This document shows, piece after piece, positions 1 through 36,676 of a stretch of DNA of 48,919 nucleotides. Under the pieces are notes generated by a model, which saw nothing but the letters and a program-made list of their open reading frames with translations, made no database searches and was not told the DNA's origin. Position 1 is the stretch's first letter; each line of letters starts with the position of its first letter. The stretch is from positions 1-48,919 of the forward strand of contig JAGGVU010000010.1 in NCBI GenBank assembly GCA_021157845.1, given 5' to 3'. The stretch is from Candidatus Aenigmatarchaeota archaeon. Its GTDB lineage: Archaea; Aenigmatarchaeota; Aenigmatarchaeia; GW2011-AR5; JAGGXF01. Position numbers and translations under genes: made by a program.

Positions 1-3000
1 CAACAAGCGATATGTATCAACTTGTTAAGGTTGAATCTGTAAAAAAAATTGGTGGAAAATCGAGCATATATACATTTAATTACGGCTCTAATCTTGATGG
101 AGAAGAGGTTGTTAAGAATATTGATGGATTATCAGCTAATTACAAGAAAGCTACTGCTTCTGGGTTGACAAGAGAAATCAGAAGCAGATGGAATGTTATC
201 CCTGATGAAAATGGTTTAGTCAAGGGAACAGTCACAGACATATCTGACATTGGTGGCGACTGGAATAAGATGACTGAATTTCTTAAAAAAGAAGGTGCGC
301 CAGATGGTGCTTATAATCTATACAGATTCACAAAAACAGAAGATGGATGGAAAGTTGAAAAAGCATCAGGGCCCAGAGGAAAAATTGATAAGTGGGTGGA
401 AACAGATGAGCTAAAGGGCGTTAATTTTGACATCGAAGGTGTAAAAGAAGGAGACCAAGTTCTTTTGTTTAAAATGAATCCAGATGGAAGTAGGATTGCT
501 GCTGAGTTTAGGTCAGACGCAGTAGATTATTATAGCAAATGCATATCGCAGATGAAAAAGGTCGGATATACGGAAGATGATATTCTCAACGAATTTATGA
601 AAAGCAACTTTATGGGCGTGAATGGAGATATTAAATTTTCTAAGCTTGTTGACGATGATGGAAAAATTGCATATGCTTTCTTTGGAACAAAGGCAACAGA
701 AGGAGATTATTATTATGTTTACATATATAAAGATGGTAAAATTGAACTGAAAGATAAATGGACAAGGGGGGGAATTAGAAACCTTCAAAATGATGGATAT
801 AAATTCAGCGGGACCAGTTTAAAGGGCTACGCAGTAAAAGAAACAGGGAAAGTGAAATGGTACGATGGCGCCAAGGTTGATTCTGAACTTGAGGAGGGAT
901 TTGTCGGGTTTGATGACGCTGATATTAATAAAAAATTCTTCCCAGCTGAGACTGTATTCAGTTCAGACGAGCTAAAAATCGAGAGAGCATTTTTTACAGA
1001 AATAAATGGCAAGCCTTTCATCGTTTCTGACGAAGCCATAACTGATACTGTTACAGGTGAAGTCTACAAATTTATAGACGGAAAAGCAACTTTGGACGGA
1101 GGCGATTTGATTGTAGAGAATGTTGATGGCAAATTAAAACTTAACTTTGTCGGAGAGTTAAAAGTAGAAACAGAAGTAAACGGGGTTTTGGGAATTAATA
1201 AGTACGGTCAGGAAAGTTTACAGAACTTCTATCAAAAAGCTTTGAATAGTTTTGTGGAAGAGCAAGGACTGATATTCACAAAAGAAGGAAAAATTGCTTA
1301 TATCAAATATCTAGAAACAGAGGGAGCCACTGATATGGCTGGAGGAAAAATACTCGAAGATGTTAAAGCAATAATAAAAAATTATGAAGATGTTGGATTT
1401 AAGTATTTTGGGAATTTTCATGTTCATTTCTATCAGGAAAAGCCATCTGCTTTGGATTGGATGAGTAAATGTGCAGAAGTACAAAGTGGGTTAGAAAAAC
1501 CGTATATTAACATTCTGTATATAGATAAAGAAACAAAGGAACCAACACTTTACATTTATAAAATGAATATGGGTGAGCAACGGAAAGTTAGTGAAGCGGT
1601 GCGTTATGCGCAAGAAGAAGTTGGTGATCCTGCTCGTGCTATTGCTCCAGAAAGTTCTTTTGAAAAAGTAAATGAAGTTTCTCCTACTAATGGTGAATGC
1701 AAAATTTTATCAGATAATCCGATTTCCGTTAAAATTTCGTATAAGGGTCGTAGTGATCTCTTTACATATTCACCAGAAGAGTTTAAAGCTAAATTTGGTG
1801 TTGAACCGCCCGGAATAGATCAGGTCAAAAATATGAAATTAAATGATGTTTTCGGTATACAGACACCAAAAGAGGTTTCTGTTATAAGGACAGATGACAA
1901 GATTGTGTTCTTTAAAGACGGAAAAGAAGGAATCTATATAAAACCTAGTAAGGAAGTGCGATGGGTAGAACCATCTGAACCAGGCAAAATAAAATTAGAT
2001 GGTGGAAAAATTATCGACCTAACTGATTCATCAAACCCTAAGGTTATAGAGCCAATAAAGCCAGTTACAGAGCCAAAACCAATATCAGAGCCAATAACAG
2101 GCGTGTCAGACCAAAAGCCATTTTTTGAGGGCTGGGGAGACAAGTTCAATCAGTTCAGCGGAAAGATGAAAAGAGGAATTTCATATCTTTTCTCAGGCAC
2201 CAAATCTATAGCAGGAAAGGGCAAAGCAGTTGGCGGAAGTATTGCTAACAAGATTAATTTGGAAACGCTGCGGGGCAATCAGCTAAAAGAGATGGCAGCA
2301 GCACTTGGCATTTCACCATTTGCAAAAGGTGAGATTAAGCCATTTACCTATAAGACAGAAATAACCATAGGTGATACTAAATATAAACTAACCTTTTATC
2401 CAAAGAAAGGGGAGCTGACTTTATATGACAATGTAAAAATAACTGGCAATGTTGAAATAGACGGAAAGGCAACAAAGTTTGAGATTTATGGAGATAAAAT
2501 AAAACTTTCTAATGATATTAAAGACCTTTCTGAAATTGGCAACTTAAATGAATACAAATTTTCTGATGTTCAGATTCATTTAGGAGATGATGGTGTAATA
2601 AATCTTAATAATGGTAAGTTTTCTGACTTGTGGAAAGAACTCCGAAAGCCTGGGAAACGAATATGGAAGACTCCGTCTGATATGGCTGAGAGTATTTCAC
2701 TTAAGAAATTAAAAAATCTGAAGAAATATATAGGAAAGTCAGCTGGTAGCGATGCTCTCACTTCACTTACTCCCTATTTTGATAAATTAAAATCTGCTAT
2801 TAAATCCGGGAATACTGGAAGCGCTGCAAAGATATTATCTTCGATATATAATAAGCTATTAAATATGCCACTGAAGGTTTCTGGTGGAGCTGAGCGTTTT
2901 GCTGGGGTTTCCGTCTCAGGCGCGAGCAAACTGTTCAGTATAAAGACGAGATTAAATTCTATTTTTTCTTATGTCAAAAAGATGAATACGCTTTCAAAGC

Positions 3001-6000
3001 AAAGTTCAAGTTTCGAGGTTGCAACTGACTTATTTTCAAAAGAAAAGGTTTTGTCAAATGAGCTGAAACTAAAATCATCTTTGGTTACGTATGGCTTAGA
3101 AGACAAGTCAATCAAGATTGAATTTACAGGAACCGGCGCTGTGGGTGATATTGACTATAAATTAACAATCAAAGATGGGCAGGTTAGGATCGTTGGAAAA
3201 TCAGGTATTGGCACTATAACTTTTGAAGGCTCTACTGATGAGATCAAACTACCAGAAAATAAATTCATAATCGGAAATGACGAAATCTCTGTCAAAAAAA
3301 TTAGTAATGTTGAAATTAATGGCAAATCTATTGATGTAACTACTGATAACCCGGCTAAATTGTTTGACGAATTAGGAGACATTTACGGGAAAGATATTTC
3401 AAAAGTATTGAAAGAATCCGGACTGGAAGACACTGCTCTTAAGATTACATTCACAGGAGCAGATGGTACGAAATATAAATTATCAATAAGCGACGGACAA
3501 GTTGTTATAAGACATAAAGGCCTTTATGGTACAGAAACTTGGACAGAATCCGCTGATAATGTCAGAATTACGAAAAACAAACTCATAATAGGTGACGAAG
3601 AAATTTCTATTGATAAAATCACAAATGTAGAAGCTGGAGATAGTTTAAGAAATACAAAGCCTGTGGCTGTGGAAGAAAATGATAATCTAGAGGGTGCTGT
3701 CAAAAAATTGCAAGCTGATTACGGTCTGCCAGCATCTGAAACAAAAATACCAACTGATGATAAAATAATATTTTGGAGCAGAAATCAGTTTTGGAATAAT
3801 AAGGGAGAATTCGTAGATGATACTAAGATGCTTTATGTGGACGAAAATGGAAACTTAATCTACAAATATATGGACAACGGTGTTGTAAAAACAGAAATTG
3901 CACAATCTGTCAAAATGGACTACGACGGTGTGAAAATAAAAATAAATGGCGAATGGATATCATTGAAAGATGTTAAAACATTGAATATAAACGGTGTAAA
4001 ATATTCTGTTAAGGACAAGGTCATTGGTATAATCTCACCTATTGATGGTGGGGGAGAAGTTATCATTCCAACAAGCATTAAGGAACTAAAATCAGCAGGA
4101 AACAGTGTGGAAGCTGTATTTGATTCAGAGGAATTTTTCTCTGGCATTTCTGGAACAATGAAGAAAACACTGCACCTAGCATCACATGTGGAGATGACAA
4201 AATTAAGCTCAGGTGATGTAATCGTAGACTTCAAAGGAAGTAATGTCATAGATGCGGATAAAATGATTTTAACAGGCGCTGCTGAAAGTGAAAATTTAGA
4301 AGCTTATGCAAAAAAAATTACTAGCAGTCTTGAGGGTAGTGGCGTTTTAAGGCCAAGAATAGAATTAAGTCCTGATAACATTCAGTCAGCTGTTAAAGCT
4401 TATGAAGCCAACGATATATCTAAGTTTGAAAATACAGACTTTGGAAAATTATTCAAATCTAATTCAGAAGCTTATCTATTGTTAAATGACAATGATATTA
4501 TCAAAGTTGCTAAGGACGACGGTGGCCTGAAATTGCTCGATTCTGATGGTAAATTCCTAGGAAATCTTTTTGTTGATGACGAAGGGTTAAAAATCATAAA
4601 AGAAAATGAAGTATTTGATTTATCAAAACTTATTGGCGGTGCTGATTTAAAAACTATAAAAGCATTTAGTGAGGGAACAGGTCTTGGCACAAAGTTTGTC
4701 AAGAATTTTGGGCCAGGAGATTTCACGACGATGGCACTTTTTGCGTTTATGGCAAAATGGAGTGCTTCAGGAGTTGGTGGGGATTATCAAAAACGATATT
4801 TCTTAAGGCAGGCTGCTTACGAAATCCCAGAGCTTATCCCTGAAAATCTGGCAGCAGCTTTGGCAGGAACAAACCTTGCTGTGCTTCCTGTAGTGGCGTG
4901 TGAAATATATATTGAAGAAGTGGCGGATCAGGTTATACTACAAAATGACTTCAAAAAGCTGACAGGGCATGACTACAGTGAACTTATATATGAGCATAAT
5001 CCAGTTACAGAAGTTGGCAAAAGAATAAAGAGGTTTGTATGGGAGCCAGAAACAAATAATCTCAATGACGAATTTACACAAACTGTGTCTGAAATTTTGT
5101 CAGCAAAGGCACAGTCATGGACAAAGGATAAAATCAACGAAGAATGTCTCTCTGGCAAAGATATAACTGTTGACGATATTTATAATGATATTTTAAGTCA
5201 TGCATACGGTTACAGTGGCTTTGATTTTGATGAGATAACTGACTATATATCTTCTGATGAATTCAAATCTAAATTTAATTTAGGAGATGGAGAAATATGG
5301 GCAAAAGATAAAATTGTGGAAATAAAAGAGCCGGTTAATCTTGAAGGCATTTTCGGAGATAATATAATTAATAATTTTGTTTCTGGCATGGTTACACCAG
5401 TTGCGTCTCTTTTTGATCGTGGTGAAGAAACCACCACAGTTGGAGAAAATTTGGCGAAGTCAAGGTATGCGCTTGGTATTGATACATCTCTGGTTAGCTC
5501 ATCATCTGGAGATGAGGAAAATGTTCAGAATCTCTTGGTTTTCGCAATAGGCGACAACCCAGATAAAATTTGGTCTAAGTATAAGGATGAAGTAGATAAA
5601 ATGTGGTCAGAATATGGCACAACAAAGTATTATGATAAAGATGCGAAAGGCGAATATTGGGAAATTACAATTGATAAAGAAACTGGAAAAATTATTGGCA
5701 TGGACAAATATGAGTTTACAGTAGACCTACCTCAGTATAACCCGACTTCCATAGAATCTAAATTTGGTCAGGGGCTAACGCCTAAAATTGGAAAACCAAA
5801 AATTAAACATGTAAGTTACTATGGCTCGATATTTCAATTGGCAGACGAGGAAAACAAAAAACTCGCAGATACATTGAACGATTTTATGTTCTATGGGCTG
5901 GGCGATTACATAACCTCTCTAAACACAAGGGAAGATGTGGATAATGTGCTTAAAGAGTTCAAAGATTCTGAACAGTACAAAAGTTTTGTAGAAAACCATA

Positions 6001-9000
6001 AAGATATTCTTACGACTATGTTTGGAGAGCCGGATGTTCCAGACTCTTATATAGTTGACCAGATGTTGGAACAAACTAAAATAAAGCTGGAATGTGAAGC
6101 TTTAGGAGCAGGAGAAATTATATTCAGCGACGAAAAAATAGCAGAAGCCTTGAAGAAAGCGGACAAAAATAATAACGGACTACTTGACGCAGATGAGGAG
6201 GAAGAATTTAAGAGTGTGCTGGCTGATAGTATAGGACAAAGATTTACGTATAGTTTTCGTGAGGGATATCATTCTCTTCTTAACACAATAGCAACTTTTG
6301 CTCGTGGCTCAAAATATCATGAGAACCTAAAGAAAAACCAGAGGTTTGGATGGATAACAGATGAGTGGGAAAATTCGGAAGGATTTTCTGCAACAGAAAA
6401 TCTGGAAACACTAGACAGAAACCTTGATGTTCTGGACGCTTATAAGGATGTCATGGAAATTAAAATCCATGAAGCAAAAGATTCTTTGGTGGCTATAGCA
6501 GCTGAAGCATTAATGAACGCTGACACAGACCACAACGGAATAATTGACGAAGATGAATATAATAACTATGTAACTATTTTTAATAATAAATGTGACGAGT
6601 TGCTAAAAGATATAAATGAGAGAGAAGGTGTGAGTGTAACTAGGGGAGATATTAATAATTTGATTTTAAAGTTAACCAGCCGAGAGACCAATCTTGATAA
6701 TTTATTGTTTGCTTCTGTGCGAAAACAATTATTAACTGACAAAGAGCTTATATCTGACCCTGAAAAGTTTAAAGAAGCAGTCGAGAATCAGTTTAGAAAT
6801 AATGAAGAAAAACAGGTGCAGTTGCTGGGCGAATATTATGCTTACTTAAATGTCAACGGTCTCATATCTCCTGCAGAAGAAGATTATGGTATTGATATTA
6901 ACCTACTTGCAACATATATTAGTAAATATATTAGTGAAGGCATTGACAACGGCGATATAAATAATATAAACTTTGAGAAGATAGACAAAATTTTGGCCAA
7001 AGACCCCGCACTTAGCCGTGCTTATCTGGGTGGTGCAGGAGGACTTGCTGAAAAAATTGCGTCCATACTTAGAAAAGCAGATGCGAATAATGACGGAAAG
7101 CTCGATGAGAATGAAAAGATTTATGCCTCTCAGTGTCTCAATGATCTTTTCCAGTTTTTTGACAAAGATTCATTGGAAGGTATAAACAAAGCTGTACAAA
7201 GTGCTGTTACCAAAGCTATGGAGGAGCACCCTCGTGAGGAACAACTTCCTGAATCTGAAAAAGAGTATATAATGAGAGAAAAACAGAAACAGCCAAAAAT
7301 AGGGAAAACTTATGAAACTACCATAACGACTGAAAACGGAAACGAGGTTGTAGGAACTATAACATACACAGGAAAGAATACCTATATTCTAAAATATACG
7401 ATGAATGGAATTCAGGTTATAGATGAAAAAGGTTCAGACTATCGCTCAATTAAATATTCAGAACCGGTTAAGACCACTATCGGCATCCCAACAACGGGTA
7501 GCACTGATGTGACCATATGCAAGATAATTTACAAAGATACAAATGGTGACGGGAATATTAGCATCGGTCCGCAGAAAGGAAAGGTCGGAGACACCGCATA
7601 TTACTTTACAGATTGCGGTGAAACTGATTTGAGCAAGGCCATAAAAATAGACTACCATTACACGAATAGTGGGCTTACTCCGTCTAACAGGTATTATAAG
7701 GCAGGTGACTGGGGTCTGACAGACAAGGATAAAGGGAAATGTTATGGCAATTGTTACTTATGGTCTAATACATCTGGTCAAGGCAAACTGTATATGTATG
7801 GCTCCAAAGGGCAGATAATTGGTTCATGTGTAGATAAAGATGGAGATATGCAATGCGATAAAGACGAGAAAGGAAATATAGATTATAAACCATATAATAC
7901 AGACGGCGATATGGTTCTGGATAGTTCGGATGATGACGATGACGGCGATGGATATCCTGATATAATAGAAGTGGCATGCGGTTCCAGCCCAAATAGTGCG
8001 GGTTCAATACCTTCGCAGGATTGTTTATCCAAAGTTTCGGGAAAAAGAATATCAACAGGAAGCTATGAAGAAGGAAATTATATTATATATGAAAGTGTTA
8101 AAATAGAGGATTGTGATAATGATGGCAAGATGGAAAAGAATATTGTCAAGCAATATTATAATAAAAAGACAGGAGCAAAAGGAAAAACAACCTACACATG
8201 CAGTCCGTTATTAGGCATGAAGTCGTGTTCTGTCGGTGTAACAGTTAATGTAGCTTGTAGAGTAGGCATTTGTAGAGGTGTTATGAAATCAACCTGTGTT
8301 TCAACCCCATATGGCACAGCATGGCAAGATTCTGGAAATTGTATAGTTGATGAAAAATGTTCAGAGAGCCAAGGCATAGAACAAGAGGATGAAAAAGATA
8401 AAGAAGATAAAAAAACCACCACAACAACTCAGAGTTTGAAAGACAAATGTTTGGAAATATGCAAAGCAATGGGAGAGGAAAATTGTGAGGCAATGTGTGC
8501 TGGTATAACTTCTACAACCTTGCCATCAAACTGTAGAAGAAGCTGCGGTGCATGCTCCTCAAAAGGGAAACATTATTGTATAACATATTGTAACGGAAAG
8601 CCTGTTGATGGCTCAGGTAGCTGGGATCCGTGTACACCAACTGCGACACCAAGCACAACGCCCCCAACAACATCAAAATACCCCGACTGTGAATTTGGAG
8701 TTGAGTATAATGGAAAGTGTTATGGAGGTGTTACAGATACGGTAAATGGGAAGTACTATAATTGTAATTGTAAATATAACCCAGACTGTTGTAGAGAATA
8801 TTTTGAGGCAAAAGACTCAGCTCAATCACCACCAACAACTTCATCACCCCCCACCACAGCGTCTCCATCAACCACAACCCCGCCAACTACATCAGCACCA
8901 AGCTGCAGAATAAGTTGCGGGGCGCCAGGCTCTACTGGTAAATGCTATTGCATGACTATATGCGATGGAAAACCTGTTGATGGCTCAGGTCATTGGGTCG

Positions 9001-9014
9001 TTTGTCCAACCTAA
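1..9014 (+). CDS. Giant secreted/surface protein, 5' partial (frame open to window edge); JAMM-like motif, duplicated beta-rich module, EF-hand/TSP3-like Ca-binding loops, Thr/Pro linkers, Cys-rich C-terminal repeats
   Basis: Single ORF of at least 3000 aa; no stop upstream of the ATG at 12; motifs HVHFYQEKPSALD, DKNNNGLLDADEEEEF, DTDHNGIIDEDEY, DANNDGKLDENEK, DTDGDMVLDSSDDDDDGDGYPD; TTTTTQS and PPTTSSPPTT linkers. Confidence 0.9.
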   Translation, partial: TSDMYQLVKVESVKKIGGKSSIYTFNYGSNLDGEEVVKNIDGLSANYKKATASGLTREIRSRWNVIPDENGLVKGTVTDISDIGGDWNKMTEFLKKEGAPDGAYNLYRFTKTEDGWKVEKASGPRGKIDKWVETDELKGVNFDIEGVKEGDQVLLFKMNPDGSRIAAEFRSDAVDYYSKCISQMKKVGYTEDDILNEFMKSNFMGVNGDIKFSKLVDDDGKIAYAFFGTKATEGDYYYVYIYKDGKIELKDKWTRGGIRNLQNDGYKFSGTSLKGYAVKETGKVKWYDGAKVDSELEEGFVGFDDADINKKFFPAETVFSSDELKIERAFFTEINGKPFIVSDEAITDTVTGEVYKFIDGKATLDGGDLIVENVDGKLKLNFVGELKVETEVNGVLGINKYGQESLQNFYQKALNSFVEEQGLIFTKEGKIAYIKYLETEGATDMAGGKILEDVKAIIKNYEDVGFKYFGNFHVHFYQEKPSALDWMSKCAEVQSGLEKPYINILYIDKETKEPTLYIYKMNMGEQRKVSEAVRYAQEEVGDPARAIAPESSFEKVNEVSPTNGECKILSDNPISVKISYKGRSDLFTYSPEEFKAKFGVEPPGIDQVKNMKLNDVFGIQTPKEVSVIRTDDKIVFFKDGKEGIYIKPSKEVRWVEPSEPGKIKLDGGKIIDLTDSSNPKVIEPIKPVTEPKPISEPITGVSDQKPFFEGWGDKFNQFSGKMKRGISYLFSGTKSIAGKGKAVGGSIANKINLETLRGNQLKEMAAALGISPFAKGEIKPFTYKTEITIGDTKYKLTFYPKKGELTLYDNVKITGNVEIDGKATKFEIYGDKIKLSNDIKDLSEIGNLNEYKFSDVQIHLGDDGVINLNNGKFSDLWKELRKPGKRIWKTPSDMAESISLKKLKNLKKYIGKSAGSDALTSLTPYFDKLKSAIKSGNTGSAAKILSSIYNKLLNMPLKVSGGAERFAGVSVSGASKLFSIKTRLNSIFSYVKKMNTLSKQSSSFEVATDLFSKEKVLSNELKLKSSLVTYGLEDKSIKIEFTGTGAVGDIDYKLTIKDGQVRIVGKSGIGTITFEGSTDEIKLPENKFIIGNDEISVKKISNVEINGKSIDVTTDNPAKLFDELGDIYGKDISKVLKESGLEDTALKITFTGADGTKYKLSISDGQVVIRHKGLYGTETWTESADNVRITKNKLIIGDEEISIDKITNVEAGDSLRNTKPVAVEENDNLEGAVKKLQADYGLPASETKIPTDDKIIFWSRNQFWNNKGEFVDDTKMLYVDENGNLIYKYMDNGVVKTEIAQSVKMDYDGVKIKINGEWISLKDVKTLNINGVKYSVKDKVIGIISPIDGGGEVIIPTSIKELKSAGNSVEAVFDSEEFFSGISGTMKKTLHLASHVEMTKLSSGDVIVDFKGSNVIDADKMILTGAAESENLEAYAKKITSSLEGSGVLRPRIELSPDNIQSAVKAYEANDISKFENTDFGKLFKSNSEAYLLLNDNDIIKVAKDDGGLKLLDSDGKFLGNLFVDDEGLKIIKENEVFDLSKLIGGADLKTIKAFSEGTGLGTKFVKNFGPGDFTTMALFAFMAKWSASGVGGDYQKRYFLRQAAYEIPELIPENLAAALAGTNLAVLPVVACEIYIEEVADQVILQNDFKKLTGHDYSELIYEHNPVTEVGKRIKRFVWEPETNNLNDEFTQTVSEILSAKAQSWTKDKINEECLSGKDITVDDIYNDILSHAYGYSGFDFDEITDYISSDEFKSKFNLGDGEIWAKDKIVEIKEPVNLEGIFGDNIINNFVSGMVTPVASLFDRGEETTTVGENLAKSRYALGIDTSLVSSSSGDEENVQNLLVFAIGDNPDKIWSKYKDEVDKMWSEYGTTKYYDKDAKGEYWEITIDKETGKIIGMDKYEFTVDLPQYNPTSIESKFGQGLTPKIGKPKIKHVSYYGSIFQLADEENKKLADTLNDFMFYGLGDYITSLNTREDVDNVLKEFKDSEQYKSFVENHKDILTTMFGEPDVPDSYIVDQMLEQTKIKLECEALGAGEIIFSDEKIAEALKKADKNNNGLLDADEEEEFKSVLADSIGQRFTYSFREGYHSLLNTIATFARGSKYHENLKKNQRFGWITDEWENSEGFSATENLETLDRNLDVLDAYKDVMEIKIHEAKDSLVAIAAEALMNADTDHNGIIDEDEYNNYVTIFNNKCDELLKDINEREGVSVTRGDINNLILKLTSRETNLDNLLFASVRKQLLTDKELISDPEKFKEAVENQFRNNEEKQVQLLGEYYAYLNVNGLISPAEEDYGIDINLLATYISKYISEGIDNGDINNINFEKIDKILAKDPALSRAYLGGAGGLAEKIASILRKADANNDGKLDENEKIYASQCLNDLFQFFDKDSLEGINKAVQSAVTKAMEEHPREEQLPESEKEYIMREKQKQPKIGKTYETTITTENGNEVVGTITYTGKNTYILKYTMNGIQVIDEKGSDYRSIKYSEPVKTTIGIPTTGSTDVTICKIIYKDTNGDGNISIGPQKGKVGDTAYYFTDCGETDLSKAIKIDYHYTNSGLTPSNRYYKAGDWGLTDKDKGKCYGNCYLWSNTSGQGKLYMYGSKGQIIGSCVDKDGDMQCDKDEKGNIDYKPYNTDGDMVLDSSDDDDDGDGYPDIIEVACGSSPNSAGSIPSQDCLSKVSGKRISTGSYEEGNYIIYESVKIEDCDNDGKMEKNIVKQYYNKKTGAKGKTTYTCSPLLGMKSCSVGVTVNVACRVGICRGVMKSTCVSTPYGTAWQDSGNCIVDEKCSESQGIEQEDEKDKEDKKTTTTTQSLKDKCLEICKAMGEENCEAMCAGITSTTLPSNCRRSCGACSSKGKHYCITYCNGKPVDGSGSWDPCTPTATPSTTPPTTSKYPDCEFGVEYNGKCYGGVTDTVNGKYYNCNCKYNPDCCREYFEAKDSAQSPPTTSSPPTTASPSTTTPPTTSAPSCRISCGAPGSTGKCYCMTICDGKPVDGSGHWVVCPT

Positions 9015-11838: not shown

Positions 11839-12064
11839 TGCGGGGGGCCGGATTTTCACAAACCTTTTCTTCGGTTTTAAAGTTGTTTTCGAAAGGGATT
11901 TGGTTTGAACCGACGCATGCACTAAGCAACTAGGTTTCTCATTACTATTCTGGGCATTGCCCTTAGGTCAAAAACCTAAGCCTAGCCCCTTTTTCTGTAA
12001 CCTTTTCCGTCAACGCTTTTGCGACGAAGTCGGAAAAGGGTTGACCAGACTTGGGTACCCCCGC
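11839..12064 (-). tRNA. tRNA-Leu (anticodon TAG) with three insertions: D-loop (~11992-12040), anticodon loop (~11935-11974), T-loop (~11854-11903)
   Basis: Reverse complement GCGGGGGTACCCAAGTCTGGT...CTAGGCTTAGG...CCTAG...GTCGGTTCAAA...TCCGGCCCCCCGCA; acceptor, anticodon and T stems pair; variable arm present. Confidence 0.85.
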
Positions 12065-13138: not shown

Positions 13139-13324
13139 TGCTCCCGCCGGGATTTTCACTACCATTTCTCTTTTACATTCAAGCTTTTCTCTTTTTAAGA
13201 GAAAAGGTTGATTTGAACCCGGGTCCATGGCTTTCCTTGAACCATTTCTTTCTATCGAAGCTTTCTTTTTAAAAGAAAGGTTCGCGAGAGGCCAAGATGC
13301 TTGACCGGACTACACCACAGGAGC
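13139..13324 (-). tRNA. tRNA-Glu (anticodon CTC) with insertions in anticodon loop and T-loop
   Basis: Reverse complement GCTCCTGTGGTGTAGTCCGGTCAAGCATCTTGGCCTCTCG...GCCATGGACCCGGGTTCAAA...TCCCGGCGGGAGCA; acceptor and T stems pair. Confidence 0.85.
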
Positions 13325-15605: not shown

Positions 15606-15805
15606 TGAGCCCGGCGCGATTCGAACGCGCGACCTACTGGTTTCTTCCCACTGTCGACGCTTTTTCTAAAAGGGTCATTAGTTTTTTTTGTTTTTCCGTC
15701 GACGCTTTTTCTAAAAGGGTCGTCCGAAGCCAGTCGCTCTATCCATTTCAGACCTTTCCGTTAACGCTTTCGCTTCAGCGAAAGGGTTAGCTGAGCTACG
15801 GGCCC
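15606..15805 (-). tRNA. tRNA-Arg (anticodon TCG) with D-loop insertion (~15745-15789) and long anticodon intron (~15641-15724)
   Basis: Reverse complement GGGCCCGTAGCTCAGCT...TGGATAGAGCGACTGGCTTCGG...ACCAGTAGGTCGCGCGTTCGAATCGCGCCGGGCTCA folds as cloverleaf; CTTC:GAAG central BHB helix at the anticodon intron. Confidence 0.9.
15653..15721. repeat. Two exact 24-nt copies (GTCGACGCTTTTTCTAAAAGGGTC) inside the tRNA-Arg anticodon intron
   Basis: 15653-15676 and 15698-15721 identical by eye. Confidence 0.9.
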
Positions 15806-34290: not shown

Positions 34291-34461
34291 GGGCCCGTGG
34301 CTCAACTTGGAAGGGCGCTGCCTTCGCATGAACCCTTTTAGAAAGAAGCTTCAATGTAAAAGGTCAGGAAAAGGCAGAGGTTGTGGGTTCAAACGGCCCT
34401 TTTCGCTTCGCGAACAGAAAAAAAAGCGCCGGCGGAAAACCTGAAAATCCCACCGGGTCCA
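34291..34461 (+). tRNA. tRNA-Ala (anticodon CGC) with anticodon-loop (~34327-34369) and T-loop (~34394-34444) insertions
   Basis: GGGCCCGTGGCTCAACTTGGAAGGGCGCTGCCTTCGCA...GGCAGAGGTTGTGGGTTCAAA...TCCCACCGGGTCCA; G3:U70 identity pair. Confidence 0.9.
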
Positions 34462-34547
34462 TTCCAACTTTTTAGAAAAAAGTTGGATCAAAAAGAAAAA
34501 AGAAAATCTAGACGTCCCAAAAGAAAAATGAAAAATAAATCATTTTA
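34462..34547. repeat. tRNA-Ala 3' flank repeat, copy 1, with hairpin CCAACTTTTTAGAAAAAAGTTGG
   Basis: Aligns with 34675-34750. Confidence 0.75.
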
Positions 34548-36511: not shown

Positions 36512-36676
36512 CTTAGCCTGGTGAACCTTTTCTTTTTTAAAAAAGAAAAGCTTCAATGGAAAAGAAAAATTCGGGCAATTAGAGCGCTACGCTGATAAAT
36601 TTTCCACAAGCGCTTTTTGAGCGTTAGTGAGAAAAGGGCTTCGTAGAGGCCGGGAGTTCAAATCTCCCCCGGCCCA
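36502..36676 (+). tRNA. tRNA-Ile (anticodon GAT) with D-loop (~36523-36578) and anticodon-loop (~36598-36640) insertions
   Basis: GGGCCGGTAGCTTAGCCTGGT...TAGAGCGCTACGCTGATA...CGTAGAGGCCGGGAGTTCAAATCTCCCCCGGCCCA; stems pair. Confidence 0.88.

Follow-up and report, generated by a model that had tools for sequence, protein, structure and literature searches.

A doubled repeat-family hairpin within the anticodon-loop intron of an archaeal tRNA-Arg gene

The window, the whole 48,919-nt stretch of Aenigmatarchaeota DNA that was analysed, carries a 200-nt tRNA-Arg(UCG) gene on the minus strand (15606-15805). Its exons were first traced by hand, from 15805 down to 15606. They are interrupted by a 43-nt intron in the D-loop (15746-15788, minus strand) and by an 82-nt intron in the anticodon loop at position 37/38 (15642-15723 or, equivalently, 15641-15722, minus strand). 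The unspliced gene was found by neither ARAGORN nor Rfam. Once the exons were joined without both introns, ARAGORN recognised a clean 75-nt tRNA-Arg(tcg), so that removal of the introns restores a normal tRNA, as is the case for archaeal BHB tRNA introns. The anticodon arm of five intronless relatives (G017, G023, G041, G047 and G059) reads CTTCGGACCAG, and the D-loop of most intronless relatives has the form AGCTTGGATA. Because of these sequences, the ends of the D-loop intron are unique and those of the anticodon intron are fixed to within one base.

The anticodon intron holds two exact copies of a 24-mer (15653-15676 and 15698-15721), separated by 21 nt, and the coordinates and spacing given in the original prediction were thus confirmed. 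No other match with three or fewer mismatches occurred in the window, nor in 100 dinucleotide shuffles. In transcript order, copy 1 is a complete head (CGACCCTTTTAGAAAAAGCGTCGACGGAAAAACAA; 15688-15724, minus strand, with the 24-mer at 15698-15721) that matched the family model R1 with 45.6 bits (E 4.7e-12). It is followed by a 21-nt linker (15677-15697, minus strand), which consists of the third strand GGAAAAA and an A-rich tail. Copy 2 (15653-15676, minus strand) is a hairpin only, ending exactly at GTCGAC; it is an exact 24-nt match, covering model positions 3-34 with 19.6 bits. Since copy 2 has no GGAAAA strand, the repeat is a hairpin-linker-hairpin arrangement rather than two full units. 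A further family member (AACCCTTTCGCTGAAGCGAAAGCGTTAACGGAAAGGTCTGAAA), the third in this gene, lies in the D-loop intron, with a model match at 15750-15791 (40.2 bits).

Archaeal BHB introns are spliced by EndA at a 4-bp helix with 3-nt bulges, and occur at position 37/38 and in the D-loop. Both tRNA-Arg introns show this arrangement, with two 3-nt bulges at the splice sites. For the anticodon intron, the 5' strand of the central helix is CTTC (15726-15729, minus strand), followed by the bulge GGA (15723-15725), and the 3' strand is GAAG (15644-15647, minus strand), followed by the bulge AAA (15641-15643). The D-loop intron reads as a TCAG/CTGA helix with bulges CTA and AAT. The optimal fold of the anticodon intron lacks the BHB, but the BHB fold is near-optimal: when forced, it reached -19.5 kcal/mol versus -20.3 kcal/mol without constraint, i.e. 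0.8 above the best fold. In the forced fold, each 24-nt copy forms its own hairpin with a C-C mismatch. The genome has one EndA gene, encoding 191 aa with N- and C-terminal domains. Judging from these sequence features, both tRNA-Arg introns are predicted to be spliced in the cell. The tRNAs of this genome commonly have more than one intron, so two adjacent introns, each spliced separately, might also be imagined at the anticodon site. We consider this very unlikely, as the internal junction between the two copies showed no 4-mer complementary to an exon, and the BHB is formed by the outer ends only.

The 24-mer makes up the hairpin in a family of repeats with the pattern N'N'AC-C-CTTT..hairpin..AAAG-C-GTNN-ACGGAAA. 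Pattern searches and the model agree that this family is real, and the original prediction was right to call each copy a family core. Rfam gave no family match for the element, only matches to host rRNA and tRNA and matches at chance level, and identity with a known RNA was therefore rejected. The strict pattern ACCCTTT..AAAGCG has 12 matches in the 718-kb genome, all within six tRNA genes that were read by eye as Trp, Val, Asn (antisense), Ser, Leu and Arg. A longer pattern was present in 45 of the 148 genomes of the class, with zero matches in the reversed control, and a GTDB scan yielded at least 120 stretches with the family. Among the 80 GTDB matches listed with titles, all but one are archaeal, mostly Aenigmatarchaeota, the phylum of this genome. 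The other archaea among the matches listed are Micrarchaeota, Diapherotrites, Nanoarchaeota, Altiarchaeota, Methanophagales/ANME-1, Syntrophoarchaeum, Methanosarcinales, Thermoplasmata and Nitrososphaeria.

In Aenigmatarchaeota the family is common, chiefly in tRNA and rRNA introns. Its sites include the D-, anticodon and T-loops of tRNAs, 16S rRNA (Rfam confirmed the hosts at L144 and L158) and, by reading, 23S rRNA. Flanks joined by script gave an ARAGORN tRNA in sense for 63 of 210 instances and in antisense for 6 (one with a single marginal call), in a test that is blind to rRNA and to tRNAs with several introns; shuffled flanks gave none. Antisense placement was also noted for the copy at G000:C12:78693-78728 (L344, L173), which lies in a tRNA-Asn anticodon intron with no canonical BHB seen, and likewise for members at L125, L126 and L184. 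At L124 (1500-1720), two units, each made of a 5' tRNA-Lys fragment, the element and a fragment-complementary tail, lie upstream of an intact tRNA-Lys, and captured 5' tRNA fragments were seen in T-loop introns at L154 and L157. In ANME-1 and relatives, copies lie in frame within genes and straight after stop codons. At L191, L208, L218 and L267 (ANME-1 and related MAGs), the element is in frame within genes that read as IS200-type TnpA. The idea that the element marks the end of one gene type outside DPANN was rejected, the neighbouring genes being varied.

Several other members lie in the window. These are found in the D-loop intron of tRNA-Leu (11999-12045, minus strand, 47.1 bits) and the T-loop intron of tRNA-Ala(CGC) (34392-34443, plus strand, 30 bits). 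Members of a variant subfamily occupy the T-loop intron (13167-13213, minus strand, 23.4 bits, sequence read) and the anticodon intron (13244-13286, minus strand, 14.7 bits, E 0.011) of one tRNA-Glu(CUC), as well as the D-loop intron of tRNA-Ile(GAU) (36520-36567, plus strand, 29.7 bits). Rfam found the latter tRNA with both introns in place. A weak antisense match (36596-36643, minus strand, 17.6 bits) falls within the anticodon intron of the plus-strand tRNA-Ile. At least seven tRNA genes between 11840 and 36676 (those for Leu, Glu, Arg, initiator Met and Ile, and two for Ala) are interrupted by introns in the D-, anticodon or T-loop; one of these genes was detected by ARAGORN and another by Rfam. 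Elsewhere in the window, a 3000-aa ORF (12-9014, plus strand) matched nothing in NCBIfam, and in Pfam it gave just an EF-hand match below threshold.

The head of the family has a well-defined structure. The dinucleotide NN after GT is the exact reverse complement of N'N' before ACCC in 205 of 213 unique instances (96%), compared with a mean of 29.7 and a maximum of 49 in shuffles. In an alignment of 50 sequences, 98.2% of cells are paired and covariation scored 0.298 versus 0.068 in shuffled alignments, a value that none of 500 shuffles reached, although such statistics overstate independence because the instances are related to one another. The GGAAA strand that follows AC is a parallel complement of the 5' arm (CCTTT..). 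Matches of this strand beyond the fixed five bases numbered 550, against 368 +/- 15 when shuffled, and the lengths of the T-run and A-run agree between the 5' arm and the GGAAA strand, with C then G in 64 of 81 cases. The variant subfamily, which lay outside the discovery set of this mirror rule, also obeys it (12 of 12 in the tRNA-Ile D-loop and 10 of 12 in the tRNA-Glu T-loop), and the shuffle test on eight hand-read window copies gave 37/5000. The natural reading is that the GGAAA strand would lie on the stem as a third strand, in RNA or DNA. A pseudoknot between loop and downstream sequence was rejected as a general feature, since there was no excess in tRNA cases and a weak one elsewhere. 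Complementarity of tail to exon beyond the need of the BHB was likewise rejected, showing just a modest excess. A second palindromic repeat type (CCAACTTTTT..AAAAAGTTGGATCAAAAAG) lies beside tRNAs in the window (34467-34500 and about 34680) and in relatives, and may obey the same mirror rule.

The original prediction left open whether one element had been duplicated or had landed inside another. The two tRNA-Arg copies follow each other head to tail and enclose no interrupted copy, so that nested insertion in this intron was rejected and the duplication half of the proposal stands. The NN of copy 2 (CG) pairs better with the N'N' of copy 1 than with its own, which identifies copy 2 as derived from copy 1. 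On the same grounds, the independent arrival of a second element, within or next to the first, is unlikely, as neither copy is interrupted and copy 2 matches itself incompletely in a family whose members otherwise do so almost always. It would nonetheless fit a family that is mobile or homogenised within genomes, and one locus elsewhere (G016:C1:53754, ACCCTTTGCACCCTTTTT..) looks nested.

Comparison of the same tRNA-Arg gene in relatives revealed one core in the orthologous intron of G002 and one diverged core in that of G001, both of the same family as the window, and no intron at the anticodon site in the five more distant relatives named above. The doubling thus looks recent, in line with the recent activity that had been proposed, and the two copies are not conserved over long distances, which had been named as the outcome that would count against it. 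Most family members have a single hairpin. Direct repeats of the head within 130 nt were nevertheless found at about 17 distinct loci in the sample, from several independent genomes, implying that the family multiplies in place readily. In the same genome as the window, tRNA-Trp has 2-3 tandem units in each of two introns (anticodon and D-loop), with periods of 50 and 52 nt, and these arrays also end in a truncated copy. Tandem Repeats Finder reported both tRNA-Trp arrays and left the tRNA-Arg array (about 1.5 copies) unreported. The draft state of the genome (20 contigs, 90.9% complete) might raise the suspicion of an assembly artefact. That is the least probable of the explanations and can hardly be credited, given that the entire array spans about 70 nt, which a typical short read exceeds, and that similar arrays occur in several independent genomes.

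Comparison of the loops pointed to movement or homogenisation within genomes. Loops more than 85% alike made up 8.5% of same-genome pairs at different sites, versus 0.35% of pairs between genomes, and the best loop match lay in the own genome for 44 of 109 copies, where 11 were expected. This likeness implies spread or conversion within genomes. Near-identical introns are present at non-orthologous sites of one genome; the loops of G044 and the blocks of G078 are further cases. In G078, the same blocks are found at various sites, among them the T-loops of several tRNAs. The left end of the element is sharp at N'N'ACCC in G078, and the right end is variable. An ACCA repeat flanks the tRNA-Arg intron of G002, and none flanks the D-loop intron of this genome (G000). 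From these sequence comparisons, the hairpin family is apparently mobile, being spread or homogenised within genomes.

The main rival to duplication is that the hairpin-linker-hairpin is itself a mobile two-ended unit, received whole, perhaps from tRNA-Trp. Elements of the IS200/IS605 or REP type have left and right hairpins, a model for such a unit. The Arg and Trp linkers are closely related, a resemblance that would be compatible with the arrival of an already assembled block and counts against duplication. Four G078 loci also share the same composite, their upstream flanks losing similarity immediately ahead of N'N'ACCC, and several tRNAs of that genome carry composite blocks in their T-loops. 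However, the hairpins of this genome are identical within each array and different between arrays, which favours duplication after divergence. The predominance of single hairpins also speaks against a two-ended unit, as does the G078 shared block, which continues past the second hairpin. Overall, we regard transfer of a block as rather improbable, and hold with moderate confidence that the doubling arose when a mobile-intron head was recently duplicated in tandem within one BHB-type intron.

Under tandem duplication, the head, linker and site-specific 3' tail would form a single 37/38 intron closed by the CTTC/GAAG BHB with its 3-nt bulges. EndA would cut this BHB once and a ligase would join the exons, so both copies would leave as one intron. 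The second hairpin would have arisen in place, either because the polymerase slipped or switched template at the hairpin or through unequal exchange, and would be tolerated because extra internal hairpins leave the splice motif untouched. The family as a whole would meanwhile be spread or homogenised within genomes.

Rickettsia palindromic elements are short, palindromic and repeated, and they insert into RNA genes as well as, in frame, into protein genes. The archaeal family resembles them in all these respects, but belongs to another domain, has another sequence and lies mostly where splicing would remove the copies. Mini-elements derived from IS200/IS605 and REP/BIME sequences form imperfect hairpins that are mismatched close to the foot, as does the archaeal head; neither a transposase nor a matching insertion-sequence end has so far been linked to the latter. 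In its 37/38 and D-loop sites, 4-bp helix with 3-nt bulges and accompanying EndA gene, the tRNA-Arg case is like the archaeal BHB introns as reviewed in PMC4033280, whereas its inner part is a conserved repeat hairpin and not an arbitrary intron. In Thermoproteales, tRNA introns transpose between tRNAs (Fujishima et al. 2010, as summarised in PMC4033280). As far as that summary describes them, those introns are likewise similar across the tRNAs of one genome, several per tRNA and at non-canonical positions. The present family differs in having a short head of fixed sequence and fold that is common to many archaeal phyla, in occurring also in rRNA, within protein genes and after stop codons, and in multiplying in tandem inside introns. 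Its hosts among the matches listed are Aenigmatarchaeota and other phyla, not Thermoproteales. Eukaryotic introners, as portrayed in PMC9860276, are repeat families that make introns on insertion; they are spliceosomal and are DNA transposable elements. The archaeal family shares with that description the repeat family and, apparently, the creation of introns on insertion, but no link to a transposase was found.

In the open-access literature, no title or abstract dealt with the shared head, Aenigmatarchaeota introns or tandem copies in introns, which is weak evidence of absence. Against this literature, the hairpin family appears to be a previously unnamed repeat family, whereas intron transposition between tRNAs was already known from Thermoproteales. 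Tentatively, it might be a pan-archaeal, protein-free mobile element, made of a hairpin and a sequence-matched third strand. Such an element would turn itself into a BHB intron on landing in stable-RNA genes and would travel with either one hairpin or two, making it the archaeal equivalent of introners; we think this proposal possible but doubtful. The mirror-matched third strand is an unusual and testable structure. The gain of introns by tRNA and rRNA genes in archaea is a long-standing question. With a recognisable head in tRNA and rRNA introns, and with orthologous sites that are empty or hold one or several copies, intron gain and multiplication become directly traceable.
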